64,000 nt of DNA. It comes from Noviherbaspirillum sedimenti. GTDB lineage: Bacteria; Pseudomonadota; Gammaproteobacteria; Burkholderiales; Burkholderiaceae_D. Below, piece after piece: positions 5,380-17,111 of this stretch (its first letter is position 1; each line of letters begins with the position of its first letter). Below the pieces are notes generated by a model. The model searched no databases and was not told where the DNA came from. It saw only the letters and a program-made list of their open reading frames with translations. The DNA lies in the NCBI RefSeq assembly GCF_003590835.1, contig NZ_QYUQ01000002.1, forward strand, positions 3,534,001 through 3,598,000, read 5' to 3'. The position numbers were made by a program, and so were the translations under genes.

Positions 5380-6309
5380 CTAGCGCGTCCCGGCGAACTG
5401 GGTGAGAGCGTCGAACAGGGTGGATTGCAGATTCGCGCCTTTGAGCAATTCCAGACTGTTGGTGGCGGCGTTGATGATGGTCACGCTCTGGATGGTTTGA
5501 TTGTTGACGCTGTTCTGGATGAAGGTGGCACCCGCTGCTTGCGCCAGCAATCCGGGGGCAAAGGTGTTGCCGGGACCATGCTGGATCAGTGTGGCGGCGC
5601 CATTGCCCAGGTTGGTCGCCACCTGCAAGCTTGCCGCGCTTGCCTGGGCTGCCGGTGCAGCTGATGCAGTTGGCGTGGCCGGCGCCGCTGATGCAATTGG
5701 CGTGGCCGGTGCCGCTGATGCAATTGGCGTGGCCGGCGCTGCCAATGCAGTTGGCGTGGCCGGCGCAGCAATCGATGCTGAAGCGGGAGTAACCGCTGGC
5801 GTAGATGGCGCAGGTCCGGCAGTGGGCGATACAGCAGAAGATTGCTGGGCCTGGACCAGTTTGCTGGCATCCGGTATCTCGATTCTGATAGCGGTCTGCA
5901 GCGCGCCATTCAGGTTGACGACGCGTTCGATGCCAAATGAGATTTTCAAGCCGGGTGCAATGTCGAAGCCGCCACGCATCTGTTCCAGGACCGTGCTATC
6001 GACCGCGACCCAATCCTGGATCGACGACTGGGCCGATGAGTCGCTTGTCCCGGCATGGGCGACGGTGGCGCTGGCGGCATCCGGTTCGAGCGTGGCGATT
6101 CCTGAAGAATCGGCACTTGCCGCGGCAGGGTTGCCTTCAAGATGGAAGATGGCCAGGGTTTCCTGCGCCTTGTCGGCAGAGTCATCCTGGACCGTCATGC
6201 TGTGTACAGCCATCTCTTCAGTCGGATAGGCAGCACCGGGAAAGACGGCTGCGCAGCCTGACATGAAACCGACTGCGATCCATTTTTCCCTGCGTGTGTA
6301 CATTGCCAT
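5380..6309 (-). CDS. Exported Ala/Pro-repeat protein of the Fap-like locus
   Basis: A 309-aa protein I cannot assign to a named family. It starts at the second in-frame ATG (6309), which has GGAG six bases upstream; an ATG at 6321 is the alternative. A basic N-terminus and hydrophobic stretch (about 9-28) suggest a Sec signal. Residues 107-114 hold L-E-Q-M-R-G-G, a double-glycine motif with hydrophobic residues at -12, -7 and -4. A nine-residue A-P-A-T-P-(I/T)-A-S-A unit is repeated four times near 180-220. The C-terminal part carries F-I-Q-N-S and T-I-Q-S-V-T-I-I-N, resembling the ends of the two other exported proteins of the locus. It is the last gene of the leftward cluster, 59 bp after the C39 peptidase. 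Inferred role: minor fibre component or processed accessory subunit. Confidence 0.7.
   Translation of the reverse strand: MAMYTRREKWIAVGFMSGCAAVFPGAAYPTEEMAVHSMTVQDDSADKAQETLAIFHLEGNPAAASADSSGIATLEPDAASATVAHAGTSDSSAQSSIQDWVAVDSTVLEQMRGGFDIAPGLKISFGIERVVNLNGALQTAIRIEIPDASKLVQAQQSSAVSPTAGPAPSTPAVTPASASIAAPATPTALAAPATPIASAAPATPIASAAPATPTASAAPAAQASAASLQVATNLGNGAATLIQHGPGNTFAPGLLAQAAGATFIQNSVNNQTIQSVTIINAATNSLELLKGANLQSTLFDALTQFAGTR
5661..5768 (-). repeat. Four tandem 27-bp repeats
   Basis: Four near-identical 27-bp units (108 bp) encode the A-P-A-T-P-x-A-S-A repeats of the surrounding gene. The units differ at only a few bases, so copy number could change by slippage or recombination without shifting the frame. 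Confidence 0.8.
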
Positions 6310-6368
6310 GATGAACTCCATTGGTGCGAATTACATGCACAGCAGTATCGACTGTGCATGAACTCAGT

Positions 6369-7046
6369 CTAAAAGTCGGTGCTGCCGAACTTGGGCAGCG
6401 TAACGCTTTCCAGGCCCTCGCGCCGTACGCCGGCGGCCAGGGGCGCGCGAGGAGCTGCACCCCAGTCGGCAACCAGGTTGAAGCGCGCTTGTTCCTGACG
6501 ATTATGGATCACGAACAGCACCCGGTTGACCCAGCTGGCTTCAAAGCTGGCGCGCTCGACGGCACGCGTGCCGGTGGCCGGGTCGCCGATCAATACCCGC
6601 CCATCGCGCAATCCCTTGACGACCACGAAATGGTGATAGCCCTTGTCGTTGATCAGCACGATGGCCGGCAAGCCCGCTTCGACGAGTTTGTCCAGCGGCT
6701 GGGTAAAACCATCCGCGGTAAAACCGTACGCCGCCAGGTAGCGTTTCATGTCCAGCAGTGAAAACCCCTCGCGCCGTATTTTTGCCTGGTCACCGTGCTC
6801 GTACATCGTCTGGAATACCATTTCTTCGGTGACGGGAACGCCGTACTGGTGCGTCAGCAGGGTCGCTATTGCCGCCGAGCCGCAACTGAAATCGTATTGC
6901 TGGCGCAGGGTGGAACTGAAACGCGATTCCTTCATGCTGGTTACAGGCACCGAATAACCGCCACCAATGCCGGAAAAGTGCAGCTTGGCGGCATCGGCCA
7001 GGCTGGCCGCCAGCATGCCGCAGACAAAGAGTGCAAGCCGGATCAT
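6369..7046 (-). CDS. Periplasmic C39-family cysteine peptidase, FapD-like
   Basis: A 225-aa stand-alone C39 peptidase. A Sec signal peptide spans residues 1-19 (hydrophobic, ending A-D-A-A). The catalytic set is visible: Q50 before D-F-S-C55-G, H138/H139 in G-Y-H-H-F, and D155 in I-G-D-P. Unlike bacteriocin transporters it has no ABC-transporter part, so it should act after export, in the periplasm. This is the arrangement of FapD in Pseudomonas functional-amyloid operons. It starts 3 bp after the stop of the small exported protein gene (7050-7451) and is translationally linked to it. C39 enzymes cut after double glycine, and both flanking genes encode proteins with such a motif, so they are the likely substrates (inference). 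Confidence 0.85.
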   Translation of the reverse strand: MIRLALFVCGMLAASLADAAKLHFSGIGGGYSVPVTSMKESRFSSTLRQQYDFSCGSAAIATLLTHQYGVPVTEEMVFQTMYEHGDQAKIRREGFSLLDMKRYLAAYGFTADGFTQPLDKLVEAGLPAIVLINDKGYHHFVVVKGLRDGRVLIGDPATGTRAVERASFEASWVNRVLFVIHNRQEQARFNLVADWGAAPRAPLAAGVRREGLESVTLPKFGSTDF

Positions 7047-7049
7047 GGT

Positions 7050-7451
7050 TTACTGGAATTGCACGTTGACGATGGTCGAGTTCTGGATCAATACGTTCGC
7101 CCCCGAGTTCTGGATCACGATTGGCAGGCCGATCGAATGGGCGAATGCGCCATCGGCGATGGAGTTGTTGCCGGTGGAAACATTTTTGGCGGTCGCGTCC
7201 TGCAACAAGCCGTGGGATACTGCTTCGCTCTTCATTACGCTACCGCCACGATACTGGTCCAGGGAATCGGGAGCGATGCTGGCGCCCAGGCCGGCAAGCG
7301 ATTGCGGTCCGGACTCCTGAGGCGTTGAGGCTGCCGGGCTCGAACTTGCGGCAACAAGCGCACGGGGCGGAACATCTTCAGCCAGCGCGAGCGCGGGGAA
7401 TAGCAAGCCCATGGCCAACAGCGTTCTGGCGTCAAATTTGACAATTCGCAT
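7050..7451 (-). CDS. Small exported protein with double-glycine motif (FapB/FapE-like minor subunit?)
   Basis: A 133-aa exported protein. The start at 7451 follows AAGGAGAAGCAA and gives a clear signal peptide (residues 1-24, ending L-A-L-A). Residues 64-70 read L-D-Q-Y-R-G-G, with I at -12, L at -7 and Y at -4 relative to the cut expected after G70. This fits the recognition pattern of C39 peptidases, and the peptidase gene begins 3 bp downstream. The remaining 63 residues end in I-V-I-Q-N-S-G-A-N-V-L-I-Q-N-S, resembling the C-terminus of the large repeat protein. Inferred role: a minor or nucleating amyloid subunit matured by the C39 peptidase. No named family is recognised with certainty. 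Confidence 0.7.
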   Translation of the reverse strand: MRIVKFDARTLLAMGLLFPALALAEDVPPRALVAASSSPAASTPQESGPQSLAGLGASIAPDSLDQYRGGSVMKSEAVSHGLLQDATAKNVSTGNNSIADGAFAHSIGLPIVIQNSGANVLIQNSTIVNVQFQ

Positions 7452-7556
7452 TTGCTTCTCCTTGCGGGTTTCCGGTCCGGATGTGGTCGGACTGGATTCT
7501 GACAACCTGCGGACGATGGCGTGCCATGCCGTAGACATGGAGGCACACCATCGCCA

Positions 7557-7584
7557 GGATCGCGCCGCTTGCGCGGCGCGATCC
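7557..7584. other. Intercistronic hairpin between the large repeat gene and the minor-subunit genes
   Basis: A perfect 12-bp stem (GGATCGCGCCGC with its complement, loop TTGC) lies 11 bp after the stop of the 594-aa repeat protein. There is no T-tract, so partial termination or 3'-end protection is more likely than full termination. It could set a high ratio of structural protein to downstream minor proteins. Confidence 0.5.
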
Positions 7585-7594
7585 CCTTGCTGCC

Positions 7595-9379
7595 TTACTT
7601 GCCCAGGGTCAGGTTGGCCTGTACATTGACGCTTTGCTGCACCAGCGAGGCGAGGCCGGTGTTCTGGCTCACGACCATGATGCCCGCTGCGGACTGGCCG
7701 ACATTCGACATGGTGTTGGACATGTTGAAGGTGCCGGCATGCACGGCAACCTTGCCGCCGGAGCCGCCTGCGCCGCCTGCGCCGCCCGTGCCGGCACCGC
7801 CCTTGGCTGCACCGCCGGAGCCCCCGCCACCGCCTGCGCCGCCATTGCCGCCGTCACCGCCGGATGCGCTGCCATTGGAAGCGTGGGTTGTGGCGTCGCC
7901 GTTCTGGGTCGCGTTGCCAACGCTTGCGCCACCGCCGTCACCACCCGCGCCGCCGGTCGAACTGGCCGATGCGCCGTTGCCGCCGGTGCCCGTTCCGGCA
8001 GCGGCCGATGCGGTCGCGGTGCCGGTGTTGTTGCCGCTGACGGCGCCGGTGGTGCCGGTAGAGGCGGCACCGCCGCTTGCCGTTGCCGAGCCGCTTGCAT
8101 CACCGGCGGTGCTGGTGTTGCTGCCGCTGCCTGCGCCGCCCGAGTTGGCCGCGGTATTGGACGCATCACCGGTGCTGGCCGAGCCGCTGCCGGAACCTGC
8201 GCCGCCGGTGGCGCTGGCTGCGCCGCCGCTGCTGGTGGCCGAGGCATCGCCGTCCGGATGTTTGCTGATGCTCTTGCTGCCGATGCCTACGCTTGCGGCC
8301 AGCGCGCCGCCGCCCTTGCCCTTGCCGGCTGCCCAGGCGTCACCGGAGCTTGCCTTCTGTCCGGAAGCCGCCAGGCCGCCGCTGCCCTTGGCTGCGCCGG
8401 CAGCATAGCCGCCCTTGTTCTTGTCGATCGCCTTGGCATCGCCGCCAACTGCCTTGGCCTTGGCATCCGCATCGCCCGTGTACTGCTTGTTGGTCGCATA
8501 AGCATCGCCGCCATAGCCTTTGCCGCTGGCACCATCGCCGCCATATGCCTTGGCATTGCCGCCATCGCCGCCATCGCCGGCCTTGGCGCTGCCGTTCTTG
8601 GCGTCGCCAGTGTAGGCCGGGCCGGCAAGCACGCCGCCGTTCTTGGAATTGCCGCCGTCGCCGCCCTTGGCGCCATCGCCACCGTAGCCGCCATCTCCGC
8701 CGATCGCTTTGCCGCCGATACCCTTGGCGCCATCGCCGCCCTTGGCACCATTGGCATCGCCCCAGTTACTGGCTTGGTTGCCAATGCCATAAACCTTCAC
8801 GTGGCTGACTTCGCCGTGCAGTTTGCTGACAGCAATAGCCTTGTTGGTGTTGAAGGAATTGCTGAAATTGGCAGTGGCAGTCGAACCATTGTTGGCTGCG
8901 GCAGTGCCGTAACCATCGGCTTTGGCGCGGCCTTTGACAATGGTCTTGGTGTCATTGTCGTTCTTGGTGATGGTCTTGGTATCGTTGTCGTTCTTGGTGA
9001 TCGTAACGGTCTTGCTGTGATCATCGTTCTTGGTGATGGTCTTGGTATCGTTGTCGTTCTTGGTGATCGTAACGGTCTTGCTGTGATCATCGGTCTTGGT
9101 GATGGTCTTGGTATCGTTGTCGTTCTTGGTAATGGTAGTGGTCTTGGTATCGTTGTCGTTCTTGGTAATGGTAGTGGTCTTGGTGTCGTTATCGTTCTTG
9201 GTCAGCGTAACGGTCTTGGTATCGTTGTCGTTGATGGTGGCGTTGATCGCTTTGGAATTGCCGGCGGCGACGGCACCATTGTCGCTGACAGTAGTCGGGG
9301 GCGTAGCCGAGGTGGCCCATGCCTGACCGGTGAGTCCGAACGCGATTGCGAGCGAAGATGCCAGGAGAGTCTTTTTCAT
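7595..9379 (-). CDS. Large exported repeat protein, candidate amyloid/fibre subunit (FapC-like role)
   Basis: A 594-aa low-complexity exported protein. Layout: signal peptide (1-22, cut near A-W-A-T); an array of nine D-(N/D)-(D/H)-(T/S)-K-T units at about 50-149, spaced alternately 12 and 10 residues, with Thr at every second position; a segment with Asn/Ser/Ala (150-205); a Gly/Ala/Asp/Ser-rich body (about 205-545) with many G-G-D-G units; and a C-terminal conserved-looking segment with V-V-S-Q-N-T-G followed by L-V-Q-Q-S-V-N-V-Q. Alternating Thr suggests beta-strands or a beta-solenoid. It is first in the leftward cluster behind a consensus sigma-54 promoter. Position and composition suggest the major surface fibre or adhesin exported through the FapF-like pore. 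It is not a sequence copy of Pseudomonas FapC, so the role is inferred. The start is fixed by the signal peptide. Confidence 0.75.
   Translation of the reverse strand: MKKTLLASSLAIAFGLTGQAWATSATPPTTVSDNGAVAAGNSKAINATINDNDTKTVTLTKNDNDTKTTTITKNDNDTKTTTITKNDNDTKTITKTDDHSKTVTITKNDNDTKTITKNDDHSKTVTITKNDNDTKTITKNDNDTKTIVKGRAKADGYGTAAANNGSTATANFSNSFNTNKAIAVSKLHGEVSHVKVYGIGNQASNWGDANGAKGGDGAKGIGGKAIGGDGGYGGDGAKGGDGGNSKNGGVLAGPAYTGDAKNGSAKAGDGGDGGNAKAYGGDGASGKGYGGDAYATNKQYTGDADAKAKAVGGDAKAIDKNKGGYAAGAAKGSGGLAASGQKASSGDAWAAGKGKGGGALAASVGIGSKSISKHPDGDASATSSGGAASATGGAGSGSGSASTGDASNTAANSGGAGSGSNTSTAGDASGSATASGGAASTGTTGAVSGNNTGTATASAAAGTGTGGNGASASSTGGAGGDGGGASVGNATQNGDATTHASNGSASGGDGGNGGAGGGGGSGGAAKGGAGTGGAGGAGGSGGKVAVHAGTFNMSNTMSNVGQSAAGIMVVSQNTGLASLVQQSVNVQANLTLGK
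8933..9232 (-). repeat. Tandem repeat array encoding D-N-D-T-K-T units
   Basis: About 300 bp of in-frame tandem repeats. The first copies have a 36-bp period (12 aa); later ones form a 66-bp higher-order unit (22 aa = 12 + 10) that carries a D-D-H-S-K-T variant. Near identity at the DNA level shows recent duplication. It is coding sequence and not a CRISPR array. Confidence 0.85.
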
Positions 9380-10025
9380 GATTGTGCCTTTACAAAAATT
9401 ATCGAAGGTTGATCAATATCCGACAGGGCTTGGCAGAACTCACCAATCCGTTCACCTGCATTGCAAATGTGGTGCCAACGTATGAGTAGTGCCATTAAGT
9501 CATTGAAAAACCGGAAGTTACGAGGCGCAGGCGGCAGTAGATCGCTGTATTGCGCACGGCAGTCGTGGCATGTCCGTGCAAGATATGTAACGCATCTGAT
9601 ACAGCAGTAGGTAAGTCCATGTTATCCATGATTACTCCAGGCATGAGCTTGTCTGGAAATTTCAATTAATTCAAAAACATAAGAGAAACTCTTCGTATTC
9701 TTGCGCAATTATCTGCACTGTAAAGATTGTGTTACATGAGGCCGCCACAAAGCTGAAATACGGCCTGTGCCGCAGGATCATCCATGGGAGTGAAGTGCAT
9801 GCATCGATGTACTGTCATATTTCGATACAGAGGCCGGATTTCATGCTTCGCAAAATCCGCGTGCCGTTGAGGTACTTGTGCGAAATCAAGATGGAATATG
9901 CATGCTTAACGAAAAATGTGGCATTCCATCACCAACTTGAGTGTCCCATGACGAATGTCCATGCAGTCGCACGCCAGCACCGCCGGCCTGCGCGGAAAGT
10001 GACCAGCCTGGTCCGAGAAGGCAAA
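9380..10025. other. Divergent intergenic region of the Fap-like locus
   Basis: About 650 bp between the divergent repeat-protein and barrel genes. It holds the leftward sigma-54 promoter (9462-9477). The reading frame of the barrel gene stays open upstream to 9729, but that part lacks a signal peptide or family pattern and is treated as non-coding. No convincing sigma-54 promoter faces right; the nearest look-alike (9566-9580) has the wrong spacing. Confidence 0.6.
9462..9477 (-). promoter_or_regulatory. Sigma-54 (-24/-12) promoter of the Fap-like operon
   Basis: Read leftward the sequence is TGGCAC-N5-TTGCA with the exact GG-N10-GC spacing of RpoN promoters. Transcription would begin near 9450, about 70 nt before the start codon at 9379. 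A sigma-54 activator with an intact GAFTGA loop is encoded 2 kb away (11448-12869). Confidence 0.8.
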
Positions 10026-11363
10026 ATGAAGCCAGGCGGTTTGCGCAAAGCTGGTGCGCTGTGCTGCGCATTGCTTATGCTGACACATGGCCTGGCGCAG
10101 GGCAGCGATGTTGCGGGCGATACGCCCGAACGCCAGGCATTGCAGCGCAGGCTGGCCGAGCAGATCGAACAGATCAATGCATTGAAGCGCGCGATCGCGA
10201 AACAGGAAGCCGATCTTGTGCAATTGCGCCGCGCCGTGACCAGCGAATCCCTGAATGCGCAGCGCGGTCGCGGACCGGCTGACCCCGCGCAGCAGCCACA
10301 GGGCGGGCAGGCTGCGCAGGCGCCGCAGGATGGACAGGCAGTGCAGACGGCACAGGCAGCGCAGGGTGGTCCGGTCGGCCAGGCGCCGCAACAGGAAGCC
10401 AGGCCGCCGGAGGTGGCGCAGATTTTCGATCAGCCCGGGGTGCTGACGCCGCGGGGTAAATACGTCCTCGAGCCTTCCCTGCAGTACAGCTATTCGTCGG
10501 CCAACCGGGTGGCGCTGATCGGTTACACCGTGATACCGGCGCTGCTGATCGGCCTGATCGATGTGCGCGAGGTCAAGCGCAATACCTTCACCGCGGCGTT
10601 GGCCACGCGCTTCGGCCTGACCAATCGCCTCGAGGTGGAAGCGCGCATCCCTTACGTGTACCGTTCCGATTCGACGGTAAGCCGGGAAGTGGGCACCGGC
10701 AGCGCCAACGACACGGATCGAACCTTCAGTGCCAGCGGCAGGCAAATCGGCGACGTCGAACTCGGCATGCGCTATCAGTTGAACGATGGCGGCATCGACA
10801 AGCCGTATTACATCGGCACGCTGCGATTCAAGTCCCGCACCGGGCGCGACCCCTTCGAGGTGGTGACCGATTGCGTCCAGCGTTGCGTCGGCAATTCCAG
10901 CGGCACCGGCCTGCCGCTGGAATTGCCGACCGGTTCCGGCTTCTACTCGCTGCAGGGTGGCCTGACATGGCTGTTTCCGAGCGATCCAGCGGTGTTTTTC
11001 GGCAGCGTGACTTATCTGCATAATTTCAAGCGCAGCAATGTCAGCCGCACGGTTCTGAATGGCGAGCGCGAATTCCTCGGCAGCGTCGAGCCTGGCGGAA
11101 TTTTCGGGTTCAATTTCGGCATGGGGCTCGGTCTGAACGACAGGACTTCGTTCAGCATCGGCTACGACCACAATTCCGTCGGGCGCACGAAGCTGAACGG
11201 ACAAGTCGTTCCGGGCTCGGTGCGCACGCAACTGGGCACACTCCTGCTCGGCTACTCCTATCGCATCAATGACAGGCGAACCCTGGCAGTGTCGCTGGGA
11301 GCCGGCCTGACGCGCGACACGCCCGATATCACCCTGAGCGTAAAACTGCCGATTTCGAACTAG
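10026..11363 (+). CDS. FapF-like outer-membrane beta-barrel secretion pore
   Basis: A 445-aa outer-membrane protein with the plan of FapF, the trimeric amyloid-secretion channel of Pseudomonas. Residues 1-25 are a signal peptide, 34-72 a coiled coil (Q-R-R-L-A-E-Q-I-E-Q-I register), 78-125 a Gln/Ala/Pro linker, then a short plug-like segment (E-V-A-Q-I-F-D-Q-P-G), and 145-445 a barrel of alternating strands. The reading frame is open from 9729, but the ATG at 10026 has GAGAAGG just upstream and gives the signal peptide, so it is chosen. It is divergent from the candidate fibre genes and probably exports them. The family resemblance is to the FapF / transporter group; sequence identity cannot be measured here. 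Confidence 0.8.
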   Translation: MKPGGLRKAGALCCALLMLTHGLAQGSDVAGDTPERQALQRRLAEQIEQINALKRAIAKQEADLVQLRRAVTSESLNAQRGRGPADPAQQPQGGQAAQAPQDGQAVQTAQAAQGGPVGQAPQQEARPPEVAQIFDQPGVLTPRGKYVLEPSLQYSYSSANRVALIGYTVIPALLIGLIDVREVKRNTFTAALATRFGLTNRLEVEARIPYVYRSDSTVSREVGTGSANDTDRTFSASGRQIGDVELGMRYQLNDGGIDKPYYIGTLRFKSRTGRDPFEVVTDCVQRCVGNSSGTGLPLELPTGSGFYSLQGGLTWLFPSDPAVFFGSVTYLHNFKRSNVSRTVLNGEREFLGSVEPGGIFGFNFGMGLGLNDRTSFSIGYDHNSVGRTKLNGQVVPGSVRTQLGTLLLGYSYRINDRRTLAVSLGAGLTRDTPDITLSVKLPISN

Positions 11364-11447
11364 CGGCATTGTTGCAAGGCTGGGCGCCCGCGTGCCGCCG
11401 GCCCTTGCATCATGCTTGCGCAATGTCGCCGGACGCGCTGCAGGCAG

Positions 11448-12869
11448 CTACTTGAAGCTGTCGAGGTAGGGGGCGCTTGGCGTCGAGATCGAGTGCCCTC
11501 GAATGTTGTATTTTTCAATGAGGCGGTACAGCGTCATGCGCGACACGCCCAGCAGGCTGGCTGCGTGCGACATCTGGTTGCGTGCTTGCGACAAGGCGCG
11601 GTGAATCATGACGCGGTCGGTGGTGGCGCGCGCGTCCTCCAGCGACAGCAGCTTGTTGTTGCTCGGCACATTCATAAAGCCGAGATCCTCGGGCTGGATG
11701 AAGCGTCCTTCCGCCATCACCGTGGCGCGCTGTATGCGGTTGATGAGTTCGCGCACATTGCCAGGCCAGGTATGGTTGCGCATGGCAGTCAATGCGGCGC
11801 GGGAAAATCCGCGAACGGTGTGCTTATGCATGGTGGAGAACTTGGTGAAATAATGCTGCGCCAGGTCATCGATATCGGCTTCACGCTCGGTCAGTCTGGG
11901 CGTGCTGATGCAGATCACATTGATGCGGTAGTAGAGGTCTTCGCGAAAGCGTCCCTGCGCTACCGCTTCGGCGAGATCGACGTGGGTGGCGGCGATGACA
12001 CGCACGTCGACGGCCACGGCTTCGGTGCCGCCCACGCGCACGATCCGCTTTTCCTGCAGAAAGCGCAGCAGGTTGATTTGCATGTCGAGCGGCATGTCGC
12101 CGATTTCATCCAGAAACAGGGTGCCGCCCCTGGCCGCCTCGATGCGGCCGATCTTGCGTTGCTGGGCGCCGGTGAATGCGCCTTTTTCATAGCCGAACAA
12201 TTCCGACTGCAGCAATTGCGGCGCGATCGAGCCGCAATTGACGGCGATGAAAGGCGCATGCTTGCGCGGCGATTGCCGATGCACTGACATGGCGGCGAGC
12301 TCCTTGCCGGTGCCGGATGCGCCGATGATCAACACCGAAGCCTCGGTGCGCGCAACCTTGCGGATCTGTGCAAACAGGCACTGCATGACTTCGCTCTTGC
12401 CTACCACCATAAAATCCGCATCCTTGGCGCTGCGCTCGTGCACCGGCGCGCTGCAGGAGTCGCGCACAAAAGCCATTCCCCACGCGTGACGCAGCATCAG
12501 CATGGTGTGGTCGGGATGCGCGGGCAGGATCAGAAAGTTGAACAGATAGGCGCTGATGCATTCGCGCACGCGCACGTCGGCCACCAGTTCCGGCGCGATC
12601 ATGCCGATCCACGACATGCCGCCGCGGTTCAGCAGCAGTTCACAGCTTTCCAGATGGGCGACGTCGTCTGCATGGTTTAACATCAGCAAGCCGACGCGGC
12701 AGCCCGCGTCGATTGCAAGACCGGACGAATCCGTACCGGCCTGTTCAATCAGTTGCATGCCATGTTTTTGCAGCATGGCCGAATAGGGACAATAAACTTC
12801 AGTGCGCCTGGCCGGGCGCAGGATCAATACGGTCTGGTCCTGCCGCACGGTTTTTGACACATTCAGCAC
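11448..12869 (-). CDS. Sigma-54-dependent transcriptional activator, VpsR-like
   Basis: About 473 aa. The N-terminal 130 residues look like a degenerate receiver or VpsR-type domain with a G-M-I-A-P-E segment. Then comes a complete AAA+ domain: Walker A G-A-S-G-T-G-K-E, the sigma-54 contact loop G-A-F-T-G-A, Walker B G-G-T-L-F-L-D-E, and the R-finger region. The C-terminus is a Fis-type helix-turn-helix ([16 protein letters not shown]). A GTG at 12869 is preceded by GGGAG at six bases and is preferred. Longer starts exist at 12908 (ATG) and 12938 (GTG). VpsR-type activators often control exopolysaccharide or biofilm matrix. Next to a sigma-54 promoter and fibre genes, it is the likely activator of the Fap-like operon (inference). 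It runs towards the end of the barrel gene, 84 bp away. Confidence 0.88.
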
Positions 12870-13081
12870 AGTGCTCTCCCATGGCGATCCATTGTTCGCA
12901 TCAGCCATGCAAGAATCCGGAATGGCTGCTGCAAACACTAGACAGGTTAATTACGCATCGGGAGGCGAGTTTGTTGCGGCGCAAAAAATGGGAAATTACC
13001 GCATCTTCAGTGTTACAAGTTTGATGTAAGACCTTGTGACATTTTTCCAGGCAATGTTGATAAATGGAAGATATTGTTTGT

Positions 13082-13992: not shown

Positions 13993-14706
13993 TCAGACGT
14001 GCTTCTTGCCAAGCTTGCTGGGTTCGACGCCCAGTTGCTTCAGCTTGCGGTAGAGGTGCGTGCGTTCCAGGCCGGTCTTTTCGGCGACCCGGGTCATGCT
14101 GCCGCCTTCGCGCCCCAGATGGTGTTCGAAATAGGCGCGCTCAAAGGCATCGCGCGCTTCACGCAGCGGCAAGTCGAATGACAGGCTGAAGGGCTGCGCT
14201 TCGGGCTGCAGCATTGTCGCCGGCGCCAGGGCCGCCGGCGCGTTGGCTGCCATGGCCGCGCCACCGTGGGGCGCTGCAGCGGCGGCTTCGGCGGCGGCGG
14301 TCGGGCGGGCGAAATGGGGCGGCGCCGGACGCGCAGCTTCCTGGCCGCGCGACAAACCGTGTTGCACCGCCTTGAGCAGTTTTTGCAGGGCAATCGGTTT
14401 TTCAAGGAAATTGAGTGCGCCGATGCGGGTCGCTTCCACCGCAGTATCGATGGTGGCGTGGCCGGACATCATGATAACCGGCATGGTCAGCAAGCCATCG
14501 CGCTGCCACTCTTTCAACAGGGTGACGCCATCGGTATCCGGCATCCAGATATCGAGCAAGACCAGGTCAGGCAAGCCGGCAACGCGCATTTCACGCGCCT
14601 GCTGGGCATTTTCCGCGGTCTCCACTACGTGACCTTCATCACTCAGGATCTCCGAAAGTAATTCCCGGATACCCATTTCATCATCGACAACCAAGATATT
14701 CGCCAT
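13993..14706 (-). CDS. ntrX: Response regulator NtrX-like, receiver plus Fis HTH, no AAA+ domain
   Basis: A 237-aa response regulator. The receiver domain (1-120) has the acidic pair D8-D9 and phospho-acceptor D52 (L-L-D-I-W-M-P). An Ala/Pro-rich linker follows (about 123-165), then a C-terminal Fis-type HTH with T-R-V-A-E-K-T-G-L-E-R-T-H-L-Y. Classical NtrX has a sigma-54 AAA+ ATPase between these domains; here it is replaced by the linker, as is usual in Burkholderiales. It should bind DNA and act on sigma-70 promoters. It is cotranscribed with the sensor kinase NtrY, 83 bp upstream. Confidence 0.88.
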   Translation of the reverse strand: MANILVVDDEMGIRELLSEILSDEGHVVETAENAQQAREMRVAGLPDLVLLDIWMPDTDGVTLLKEWQRDGLLTMPVIMMSGHATIDTAVEATRIGALNFLEKPIALQKLLKAVQHGLSRGQEAARPAPPHFARPTAAAEAAAAAPHGGAAMAANAPAALAPATMLQPEAQPFSLSFDLPLREARDAFERAYFEHHLGREGGSMTRVAEKTGLERTHLYRKLKQLGVEPSKLGKKHV

Positions 14707-14789
14707 TTGCCACTCTTTCTGATCTTCACTGCCCGTTATTGTGCATCATTTGCGCTAATAATTTACCAAGGGAAATATTTGCAATACGT

Positions 14790-17111
14790 TTACGCTTTAG
14801 GTGCTAACTTTAACAGCAATATTAATACTTTGGCACCACTTTCATCAACACGATTCTGTAAATCAACTCGACCGCCATGTTCGTCGATGATTTTTTTAAC
14901 CATGGCCAGACCCAGGCCCGTGCCACGCGCCTTGGAGGTGACGTAGGGTTCGAATGCGCGCGCCAGGATCTTGGCCGAAAATCCCGGGCCATTGTCGGCG
15001 ATCGTCAGGCGCACCGCACTGCGTGCACTGCCATCCGAGCCGGGATAGTGGACCGCTTCGGTACTTACGTCAATGCGCGGCAGGGTAATGTTCCTGTCGA
15101 GGTCGGCAACGGCATCCTGGGCATTCTGCAACAGATTGTGGATGATTTGGCGCAATTGTGTTGCATCACCCATGATCTGGGGTAAACGGGGGGCCAGATG
15201 CAGATGGATGATATCGCGTTCGTCGCCAGCGATGTACAGGTGCAGGATTTCCGTGATCAAGGCATTCAAGTCGAGCGGCGCCAGCACCGCCGGCGGGGTC
15301 CTGGCGAAGTCGCGGAAATCATTGACCATTTTTTGCATGGCCGCGACCTGGTTGACGATGGTGGTGGTGGCGCGCTTGAGGATGCCGGCCTCAGTCTCGG
15401 CCAGTTTGTCGGCCAGTTTCATTTGCAGCCGCTCGGCCGAGAGCTGGATCGGGGTCAGCGGGTTCTTGATTTCATGGGCCAGGCGCCGCGCCACCTCGCC
15501 CCAGGCCAATGAGCGCTGTGCTGAAATTACATCGGAAATATTGTCGAATACCACCACATAGCCGTTGCCGGCGGTAACCGGCAAGCGTGAGCCGCGCGCC
15601 AGCAGGGTCAGCCCATCATCGCCTTCCGTGCCATTGCTGTCATCTGCAGCCCCAGCACCACGCGGGATTTCGATCTGCTTTTGCCAGTGCCGGCTGGTGA
15701 CGGTGTCGCCGCCGGCCGATTGTGCATTGTGTTCCGAAAAGGCCTTGGTCACCACGTCGGCAAACGATGCCAGTCCCGGAATCGCTGCCAGCGGCTGGCC
15801 GATGGCCTGGCCGACCGATTGTTGCAGGATGCGTTCGACCGAGTCATTGTAGGTGAGCAGCTTGAATTCGCGGTCGAGTACCATCACGCCGGCCGACATG
15901 TTCGCCAGCACCGATTCCAGATAGGCCTTGGCGTTTTCCACGGCCCTGCGGTTTTTCTCGACCGCCGCGCGCGCTTCGGACAATTGCCGGGTCATCAGGT
16001 TGAATGACTTGGTCAGGGTGCCCAGCTCAGTATTGCTGGCGACGATCGGCCGCGGTGACAAATCCCCTTCGGCGACGGCCTTGGTGCCTTCGGCCAGCAA
16101 CAGCAGCGGCTGCGCCAGGTCGCCGGCGATCAGGAAGGCGCTGGCCACCGCGCCGAAGATCGTCAGCAACAGGGTCAGGGTCAGGGTGACCAGGTAAATC
16201 TTGCGCAAGCCGCTGCGCGACAGCGATCTTTCCTGGTATTCGCTGTAGGCGGCGCGCAGCGATTCGGCATTGGCCGCCAGCGCGGTCGGTACCGGCTGGA
16301 TCAGTTGCAAAAAGCGCGTCTCGCTCTTGAGCGAGGAGGCATGCAGGGAGACCGGGATCGTCACCACTACCCGCATGCGCAGCTTGGGCGTTGCATCGAG
16401 GCTGGCCAGGCTTTGGGTGGTGCCGGGCGGAGTGCTGAATCCGCTCTCGTTGTCGACGATGTCGGCCTCGCTTTCGATGATCGAAAAGCCGCGCGTCAGG
16501 CGTGCCTGGCGCAGCATGGCCTGGGTCGGCAGGTGCGGTATCAGGTTATCGGTATCGCTATCTGTTGCGACGATGCGGCTGGCGGCGCTGACAATGGTGG
16601 CTTCCTGCAGGTTGCTCTGGCCACGCAGGCGCGACAGCTGGGTGGCCTGGGCGGTGTCGGAGAGGTCGGCGATTTCCAGTGCAATGCCGCGCGCCTTGGA
16701 TTCCAGGTCGGCCAGTTGCGACTCCAGCGCGGTGCGGCCGAGGTTCAGGCCCGATTCCAGTGCGGATTCAACGCGCACGTCGAACCAGGATTCAATTGAG
16801 CGCGAGACGAATTGCACCGATACCATGTAAATCATCAGGCCCGGCAGGATGCCGACAACGGCAAACAGCAGCACCAGCCGGGTCATCAGCCTGGAGCCGA
16901 ACAGGCCACGCCGGTAGCGCCGGTATAGCCGCGTGAGCAGCAAGAGCACCAGCACCAGCAGCGCCGTCGCCACCAGGGCGTTCAGGCCCAGCAACCAGGG
17001 ATAATGCTTGTCGAAGGCGGCGGAATTTTCCGAGGCCGAGGCCAGCAGGAACAGCAGGATGCTGACAACGGCGGCGCCGATGACGAGGAAGTACCGGAAT
17101 AGCCTGCTCAA
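14790..17111 (-). CDS. ntrY: Sensor histidine kinase NtrY-like
   Basis: A 773-aa membrane kinase. Membrane segments lie near 8-26, 40-62 and 80-105, and a further one near 300 after a periplasmic stretch. Then come HAMP (about 320-370), a PAS domain (about 385-480), the phospho-acceptor box H546-E-I-K-N-P-L-T-P, and a HATPase domain with N-box N-A-Q-D-A, D-N-G-P-G-F and G-L-G-L. It partners the receiver protein encoded just downstream. The proposed start is TTG at 17111, directly after the TAA of the DUF4390 gene; no in-frame ATG occurs before the first membrane segment. The signal sensed is not known; nitrogen or redox control is reported for the family. Confidence 0.9.
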   Translation of the reverse strand: MSRLFRYFLVIGAAVVSILLFLLASASENSAAFDKHYPWLLGLNALVATALLVLVLLLLTRLYRRYRRGLFGSRLMTRLVLLFAVVGILPGLMIYMVSVQFVSRSIESWFDVRVESALESGLNLGRTALESQLADLESKARGIALEIADLSDTAQATQLSRLRGQSNLQEATIVSAASRIVATDSDTDNLIPHLPTQAMLRQARLTRGFSIIESEADIVDNESGFSTPPGTTQSLASLDATPKLRMRVVVTIPVSLHASSLKSETRFLQLIQPVPTALAANAESLRAAYSEYQERSLSRSGLRKIYLVTLTLTLLLTIFGAVASAFLIAGDLAQPLLLLAEGTKAVAEGDLSPRPIVASNTELGTLTKSFNLMTRQLSEARAAVEKNRRAVENAKAYLESVLANMSAGVMVLDREFKLLTYNDSVERILQQSVGQAIGQPLAAIPGLASFADVVTKAFSEHNAQSAGGDTVTSRHWQKQIEIPRGAGAADDSNGTEGDDGLTLLARGSRLPVTAGNGYVVVFDNISDVISAQRSLAWGEVARRLAHEIKNPLTPIQLSAERLQMKLADKLAETEAGILKRATTTIVNQVAAMQKMVNDFRDFARTPPAVLAPLDLNALITEILHLYIAGDERDIIHLHLAPRLPQIMGDATQLRQIIHNLLQNAQDAVADLDRNITLPRIDVSTEAVHYPGSDGSARSAVRLTIADNGPGFSAKILARAFEPYVTSKARGTGLGLAMVKKIIDEHGGRVDLQNRVDESGAKVLILLLKLAPKA

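Follow-up and report, generated by a model that had tools for sequence, protein, structure and literature searches.

What does a secretion locus export when its peptidase and its outer membrane barrel are of the Fap type and its other genes are not recognizable copies of the Fap fiber genes? The question is raised by six genes in a stretch of 64,000 nucleotides of Noviherbaspirillum sedimenti (assembly GCF_003590835.1, contig NZ_QYUQ01000002.1, positions 3,534,001 to 3,598,000; hereafter the window, to which all coordinates refer), genes that a sequence-only reading had assigned to a possible, hitherto undescribed branch of the Fap secretion family that carries different cargo. The six open reading frames (ORFs), all confirmed in place, code for a C39 peptidase, a FapF-type barrel, two small exported proteins (here S162 and S313), a giant Gly-rich repeat protein (the giant), and a sigma-54 activator. 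Both small proteins carry, behind the signal peptide, a C39-type leader with hydrophobic residues at -12, -7, and -4 and an Arg-Gly-Gly end. This leader, whose pattern is common to canonical FapE and FapA, is the new element reported here. The evidence supports a sister branch of the Fap system with partly shared cargo, in the form of a FapE homolog.

The kinship of the two secretion components with Fap is clear at the profile level. The barrel matched the NCBIfam FapF model with an E value of 2.1e-53 over residues 17 to 442 and the solved FapF structure (PDB 5o67) with 1.3e-36 over residues 128 to 442, and the peptidase matched Pfam Peptidase_C39 (E value of 5e-22) and NCBIfam FapD (3.6e-42). 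Both NCBIfam matches are below the curated cutoffs (181.6 of 700 bits for FapF and 144 of 330 bits for FapD), that of FapF being strict, as 0/370 sampled genomes of the window's class reach it, canonical-looking Fap loci included. A lack of profile similarity between barrel and FapF had been set beforehand as refuting the proposed branch, and with similarity of this strength the proposal survives. The coiled coil of the barrel gave only weak Pfam matches (residues 36 to 79), and a PTG motif is present in 87/94 sister-type barrels and 11/11 canonical FapF. In a tree of 60 barrels, in which long branches were flagged, the 47 sister-type sequences (22 chosen and 25 random) lie on one side of a branch with support of 99/99, the 11 canonical FapF form the other group (95/95), and two orphan barrels fall outside both. 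The 11 canonical loci were assigned by FapF score and neighborhood, with FapB or FapC read in 8 and FapE in 11. On this tree, the barrel clade is the sister of canonical FapF. In one genome (G069), both kinds of locus occur, the canonical type as L071 and the sister type as L084.

In the peptidases of the 98 loci described below, the catalytic Cys and Gln are present in 98/98 and the His and Asp in 97/98, the remaining row being a gap. Residue 50 was ruled out as the catalytic Gln, being conserved in 70/98 only, and the Gln was placed instead at residue 49 (Cys minus 6), where it is present in 98/98 and in 10/10 canonical proteins. Six residues ahead of the catalytic His, in the column of window residue 133, 10/10 canonical FapD have Asp, and the sister branch has mostly V, N, S, or T (<20% acidic). 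At the column of residue 112, canonical C39 proteins were seen to have Arg or Lys and the sister branch Asp. These differences could be a charge swap matching the basic -1 residue of FapE, although a single evolutionary contrast of this kind is only suggestive.

Searches in other genomes confirmed that the six genes are one conserved unit, more than chance would give. A barrel search in 60 genomes (its own and 59 relatives) gave a match in 15, its own included, and 11/59 relatives hold the barrel together with the window-type C39 and cargo, three of them without one cargo gene by BLAST (L024 and L025, both at a contig end, and L031, in which a profile detects the gene). A FapF family search in 370 genomes of the class returned strong canonical-looking loci and a weaker group. 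Ten of the weaker loci (L076 to L085) hold S162 in 10/10, S313 in 9/10, and the giant in 8/10 by profile, where the S162 count is not independent, since that profile already held nine of the ten, and the S313 and giant profiles came from the window and its relatives only. Seven later loci of this survey (L193 to L199) are mixed: L197 and L198 hold all three cargo genes (S162, S313, and giant) by profile, leader-bearing proteins of other kinds occur in L193 and L194, and no C39 was seen in L195. The other two, L196 and L199, combine C39 and FapF with RGGF-bearing FapE-like and RG-bearing small proteins that the S162 and S313 profiles did not catch; this type is perhaps a third subgroup. When named genomes were scanned with the S162 alignment, at least 499 stretches were confirmed, of which the best 80 were kept; genera among the matches listed include Ralstonia, Cupriavidus, Paraburkholderia, Burkholderia, Variovorax, Rhodoferax, Massilia, Dyella, Rhodanobacter, and others, and the locus is also found in Cupriavidus metallidurans CH34, a harmless laboratory strain.

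The compiled collection has 98 loci: the window, the 11 relatives, the 10 class-survey loci, and 76 named ones from the best 80 stretches, after dropping duplicates (L086 to L088 and L131) and a canonical locus with a stray S162 match (L074). FapF was found in 94, S313 in 95, and the giant in 91 of them (72, 75, and 72 among the 76 named), where some shortfalls are contig ends and a few loci may be one genome under two names. Counted by occurrence alone in whole-genome samples, S162 is present in 24/300 genomes of the order and 15/397 of the phylum, the window's own in both. The neighborhood survey that had been suggested found the cargo set in many Burkholderiales.

The leader would tie the small proteins to the peptidase. 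In the window, positions -12, -7, and -4 are I, L, and Y in S162 and V, L, and M in S313, both leaders ending in GG. The motif L...RGG is present in 86/98 S162, 95/95 S313, and 1/94 giants, and a motif control in the same loci under one overlap filter gave 92/99 cargo ORFs versus 41/1259 other ORFs. A hydrophobic residue (V, I, L, M, F, Y, or W) stands at -12 in 88% of the 86 S162, 93% of the 95 S313, 11/11 FapE, and 5/5 FapA, and at -4 in 64%, 86%, 91%, and 100%, respectively; the L/M at -7 and the R-G at -3/-2 were imposed by the search pattern in S162, S313, and FapE, and for FapA the sites were chosen manually, the free positions being only -12, -4, and the like. After the GG, the 86 leader-bearing S162 have 63 to 68 residues (standard deviation of 1.5); before it they have 38 to 184 (standard deviation of 29), a range inflated where the longest ORF, which was used, overruns the true start. 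A constant length after the GG and a variable one before it are as expected if the pro-region is discarded. For the window copy, the likely true start is 7451, giving 133 amino acids (aa) (from database prediction P0002). AlphaFold2 modeled S162 with a mean predicted local distance difference test (pLDDT) score of 58 and placed a short helix at residues 61 to 67 (leader positions -10 to -4; local pLDDT of about 70). In the C39 protease LahT, as described in the available part of PMC6363468, hydrophobic pockets accommodate leader residues -4, -7, and -12, and the stretch from -4 to -11 is a short helix.

The same positions can be read in canonical Fap proteins. The FapE leader ends in Gly-Arg/Lys and has Glu at -8 in 7/11, and FapA leaders end in G-R/K or variants; the two proteins align in this region with an hhalign E value of 1.8e-5 (five FapA). 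The FapE leader is much like the ComA consensus Leu(-12)-X3-Glu(-8)-Leu(-7) (available part of PMC6363468), but with Arg/Lys at -1. The FapE-type pattern was observed in canonical FapA at L066, L067, L072, L075, and L032, and FapA may be a protease substrate too; none was seen in seven FapB and seven FapC. The leader ends at residues 46 to 81 of the 11 FapE ORFs, which roughly fits the statement, in the portion of PMC5557850 at hand, that no peptides were seen across about the first 70 residues of FapE. That portion also describes the Fap proteins as having no canonical C39 sequences, pointing to GG/GA motifs in FapE. The substrate of FapD is called undetermined in the sections available of PMC5557850 (2017) and PMC6173800 (2018), and a 2025 review, in the part available, has FapD "thought" to process FapE and FapF (PMC12822426). 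We predict that S162 and S313 are both substrates of FapD-type proteases, which would cut them at the end of the leader.

The three cargo proteins match no described family. Searches with S162, S313, and the giant gave no Pfam or NCBIfam family at an E value of ≤1, except for one irrelevant match (0.13), and no PHROGs match at 0.1; relatives with legible names, among the matches listed, are called hypothetical or uncharacterized proteins. S162 is related to both of the others: it is homologous to the C-terminal module of the giant (hhalign E value of 2.1e-8) and to S313 (9.5e-10). S313 in turn matches canonical FapE across the leader and the FGxE region (E value of 2e-4, probability of 47%), with a score of 36, where 60 column permutations reached 17 at most (0/60 as high), and the sole invariant columns in an alignment of 13 S313 and 11 FapE are the leader Arg-Gly. 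In 94/98 loci, the S313 gene comes directly after the C39 gene in cassette order, and in 71/98 it has the C39 gene on one side and fapF on the other, an arrangement from which the window departs, its fapF being divergent. On this evidence, S313 is a divergent FapE homolog.

The giant is best conserved in its central segment and its last ~50 residues. The sequence-only reading had described it as a DNDTKT array joined to a Gly-rich body; both are present in the window giant, but the array is only one version of a variable N-terminal region that has other repeats in other members. The giant is of low complexity, and AlphaFold2 gave it no confident fold (mean pLDDT of 38). The view that it is not a recognizable FapC copy stands, as a FapB/FapC repeat profile (E value of ≤0.1) matched 0 ORFs in the 98 loci versus 20 in canonical and other loci. 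Nor is a Fap repeat claimed from single giants (2/94 above 5 bits versus 9/940 shuffled) or from S313 (0/95 versus 4/950 shuffled), the profile for single proteins being built from 61 repeats, including overlapping duplicates, and the hhalign set being thinned to 25. No FapA was found in the window, and 1/98 loci (L077) holds a FapA-like gene. Two tandem giants precede S162 in several Paraburkholderia loci (L096, L115, L119, L128, L139, and L141, for example), this order occurring in 12/98 loci, and two giant-like proteins labeled Nitrospira (P0138 and P0144) lie outside Pseudomonadota. An amyloid, silk, or adhesin function of the giant and its location outside the cell are putative. Judged from its proteins, the locus combines a Fap-type export module and a FapE homolog with presumed polymer-forming cargo that is different or has diverged beyond recognition.

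Regulation is linked to sigma-54 in part of the family. The activator is clearly of the sigma-54 type, with a PEP-CTERM response regulator as its best NCBIfam match and a VpsR domain match, both below cutoff. A site with the pattern TGG[CT]A[CT]N5[TC]TGC[AT] was sought up to 500 bases ahead of the called giant start in the 80 loci with a full giant and enough upstream DNA, and an activator homolog was counted at an E value of ≤1e-60 within the fetched DNA of the locus. The site is present in 24/37 loci with an activator homolog versus 1/43 without (Fisher P value of 4e-10, with loci treated as independent though they are not fully so), at 74 to 156 bases from the start (mostly 80 to 100); the chance of the pattern is about 0.008 per 500 bases. 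The layout of the locus is given in Table 1: the giant, S162, C39, and S313 genes follow one another on the minus strand, with fapF divergent and then the activator. Past the activator, at 13993 to 17111, we observed a response-regulator-like gene and a large sensor-kinase-like gene, retained in four loci of the same genus (L020 to L023). No Rfam match at the gathering threshold was found between 4100 and 13500.

Table 1. Features of the locus, with positions in the window
Feature	Position	Strand	Remarks
Giant, putative cargo protein	7595..9379	minus	594 aa, Gly-rich repeat protein
Giant, signal peptide	N-terminus	minus	by eye
Giant, T/D/N/K repeat array	residues ~50-150, nt 8930-9232	minus	
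Giant, conserved segment	residues ~151-205	minus	
Giant, Gly-rich body	residues ~206-545	minus	33-34% Gly
Giant, C-terminal module	residues ~546-594, nt 7598-7744	minus	
S162, small exported protein, putative cargo	7050..7538	minus	internal double-glycine leader; predicted mature part 63 aa
S162, C39-type leader, -12 to -1	7242..7277	minus	IAPDSLDQYRGG
FapD-type C39 peptidase, predicted periplasmic	6369..7046	minus	Gln49, Cys55, His139, Asp155
S313, FapE-like protein, putative cargo	5380..6321	minus	313 aa
S313, C39-type leader, -12 to -1	5968..6003	minus	VDSTVLEQMRGG, then F
FapF-type outer membrane barrel	10026..11363	plus	coiled-coil-like N-terminal part, PTG motif
Sigma-54-dependent activator	11448..12938	minus	AAA+ and Fis-type helix-turn-helix
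Sigma-54 promoter-like -24/-12 site	9462..9477	minus	TGGCACCACATTTGCA, upstream of giant gene

Starting from the computed elements (the conserved unit, the FapF, FapD, and FapE kinship, the leader pattern, the sigma-54 link, and the shared C-terminal module), we infer the cleavage, the export route, the polymerization, and the role of each protein as follows. Sigma-54 and the linked activator would turn on the giant-S162-C39-S313 genes, with fapF being divergent, and all products would reach the periplasm via Sec. There the C39 peptidase would grip the helical leader of S162 and S313 at -12, -7, and -4 and cut after Gly-Gly, yielding an S162 of ~64 residues and a shortened S313. Cleavage would license S162, S313, and the unfolded Gly-rich giant to cross the FapF trimer. 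Outside, the giant may polymerize as the main matrix or fiber protein, with S162 as a minor subunit (nucleating or capping) and S313 as a subunit that initiates or anchors the assembly. As a whole, and as a sister branch of Fap, we hold this mechanism to be probable, with moderate confidence.

Similar leaders also appear at other loci that combine C39 and FapF. In 18 further loci of this kind, a strict leader after a signal-like stretch was found in 12/185 same-strand ORFs at a distance of up to 3 kb from the C39 gene and in 0/687 other ORFs, which shows an enrichment of leaders near C39 genes and is not a blind test. Looser leaders were found by eye in 8 of the other 11 loci (L180, L181, L183, L185, L188, L190, L196, and L199) and not in L184, L187, and L189. 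The N. sedimenti genome has a second, distant pair of C39 and FapF-like genes (L033, G000:C2:4213000-4232500, positions 9318 to 11266), with no S162, S313, or giant neighbor by profile; next to its C39 ORF, and overlapping the start of it, is an ORF in which a signal-like stretch precedes the classic double-glycine leader MTNDALDQVAGG. Leaders such as LSAAEMDGVTAG were also seen at L034 (6269 to 8555), L182 (4731 to 5978), L191 (8715 to 9056), and L194 (3386 to 6869), in one to four small exported proteins whose unrelated-looking mature parts suggest further cargo classes. The C39-type leader behind a Sec signal peptide might be the general substrate tag of C39-plus-FapF outer membrane secretion systems, Fap being one branch. 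The site at which Pseudomonas FapD cuts FapA and FapE would be L(-12)..L(-7)..M(-4)RG(R/K), with a retuned P1 pocket to which the Asp at residue 133 would point, and many sister systems would use the tag for other extracellular polymers, including Gly-rich silk-like ones. For this broader idea, we see the chances as evenly balanced.

Several results weigh against the mechanism that we prefer. The L...RGG motif is missing in 12/98 S162 homologs, 8 of them in the ten divergent class-survey loci L076 to L085, where 2/10 keep it. The giant has no leader (1/94 by pattern), so its export route is argued from operon logic and from the C-terminal module that it shares with S162; this module is not above permutations when compared to the FapB/C repeat (2/60 as high), and the giant C terminus does not match S313 (42/60 as high). 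AlphaFold2 gives no confident model of the S162 mature part or of the giant, and 13/37 activator loci have no sigma-54 site by pattern. The strict leader is found in only 7/18 of the further C39-plus-FapF loci, with a pattern written after seeing examples and with overlapping ORFs counted in both sets. More generally, the motif and profile results come from related sequences, and single events in them do not count as independent evidence. Finally, the -1 residue of canonical FapE is Arg/Lys and not the Gly, Ala, or Ser named for C39 enzymes in the available part of PMC6363468, and S162 has a weak match to the FapB/C repeat (hhalign E value of 5e-4, 0/60 permutations as high).

The first of these last two points agrees with a leader that stays uncut and is used for docking or targeting to the C39 protein or FapF, the C39 protein acting as a chaperone. 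The shift of -1 from Gly to Arg/Lys is what a binding motif could show, and Arg-Gly is the only invariant pair of the S313 and FapE alignment. Inactive C39-like domains act as chaperones in some type I systems. However, the catalytic residues are kept in every C39 protein examined except for the gapped row, and the length of S162 after the GG is constant. In Pseudomonas, FapC secretion needs the catalytic Cys of FapD, its change to Ala abolishing secretion, and FapE is needed as well (passages available of PMC5557850). We regard an uncut tag as unlikely.

The match of S162 to the repeat, located at its C terminus and seen also in single proteins (8/98 above 5 bits versus 2/980 shuffled), would be expected if this were a canonical Fap locus whose FapB and FapC, now the giant and S162, had diverged past recognition, and the order cargo-cargo-D-E-F is like that of fapB-C-D-E-F. 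Against this, the repeat profile finds nothing in the 98 loci and no FapA is found in 97, the leader that most S162 carry is absent from the seven FapB and seven FapC, and G069 carries both kinds of locus, which makes such divergence a quite doubtful explanation. It is very improbable that S162 is a small secreted peptide, a signal or antimicrobial, exported by the C39/FapF pair, with the giant as an unrelated adhesin beside it: the leader positions of S162 are like those of bacteriocin-type precursors, to which its leader and predicted mature length presumably bear a general resemblance, but 91/98 loci have a protein containing the C-terminal module of the giant, which is homologous to the one in S162, the C39 domain has no ABC transporter fused to it, and no transporter or immunity gene was noticed beside it, the flanking ORFs having had no family search.

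Three known systems come closest to this locus. With Pseudomonas Fap (fapABCDEF), it shares a FapF-type barrel, a FapD-type C39 peptidase, a FapE-like protein, and the leader positions, which canonical FapE and FapA have in common with S162 and S313. It differs in having neither FapB/FapC repeats nor FapA, in its cargo of a Gly-rich giant and a protein of ~64 predicted mature residues, in the GG at -2/-1 instead of Gly-Arg/Lys, and, in part of the sister family, in the linked sigma-54 activator and promoter. Deletion of fapA is a common deviation among Fap systems, according to the available parts of PMC3792158 and PMC6173800. The proposed undescribed branch with different cargo is supported by its separate clade and by its lack of FapB/C repeats, but the FapE homolog makes the cargo partly shared, and such systems had been partly glimpsed before, as colocated fapD and fapF homologs in five further phyla, with no cargo described in the part of that report available (PMC6173800). 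Among the papers listed in searches of open-license PubMed Central, none was found that names the sister branch or its leader.

The Acinetobacter Fil "putative pilus" (FilB and FilC) also has a C39 peptidase adjoining a FapF-like barrel. Our C39 protein matched NCBIfam FilB (E value of 7.8e-40, 137 of 475 bits), but the barrel matched FilC far more weakly than FapF (7.8e-16, 58 of 630 bits). Other Fil families are not among the matches listed for the six window proteins, and the one Fil locus read has no S162-, S313-, or giant-like neighbor by profile. With FilB and FilC below cutoff and no cargo match, the locus was not assigned to the Fil system. The PCAT/AMS C39 peptidases (LahT, ComA, and PCAT1) have the same Gln-Cys-His-Asp residues and leaders with -12/-7/-4 hydrophobics ending in GG, whereas here the enzyme is free, with its own signal peptide and no ABC transporter, and the substrates combine a Sec-type signal peptide with an internal leader.

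A sister system with an intact GG and a constant downstream length points to the exact bond, and to single residues, that would be critical for secretion. The Fap pore may likewise belong to a larger family of exporters that carry varied cargo and occur in many Burkholderiales.

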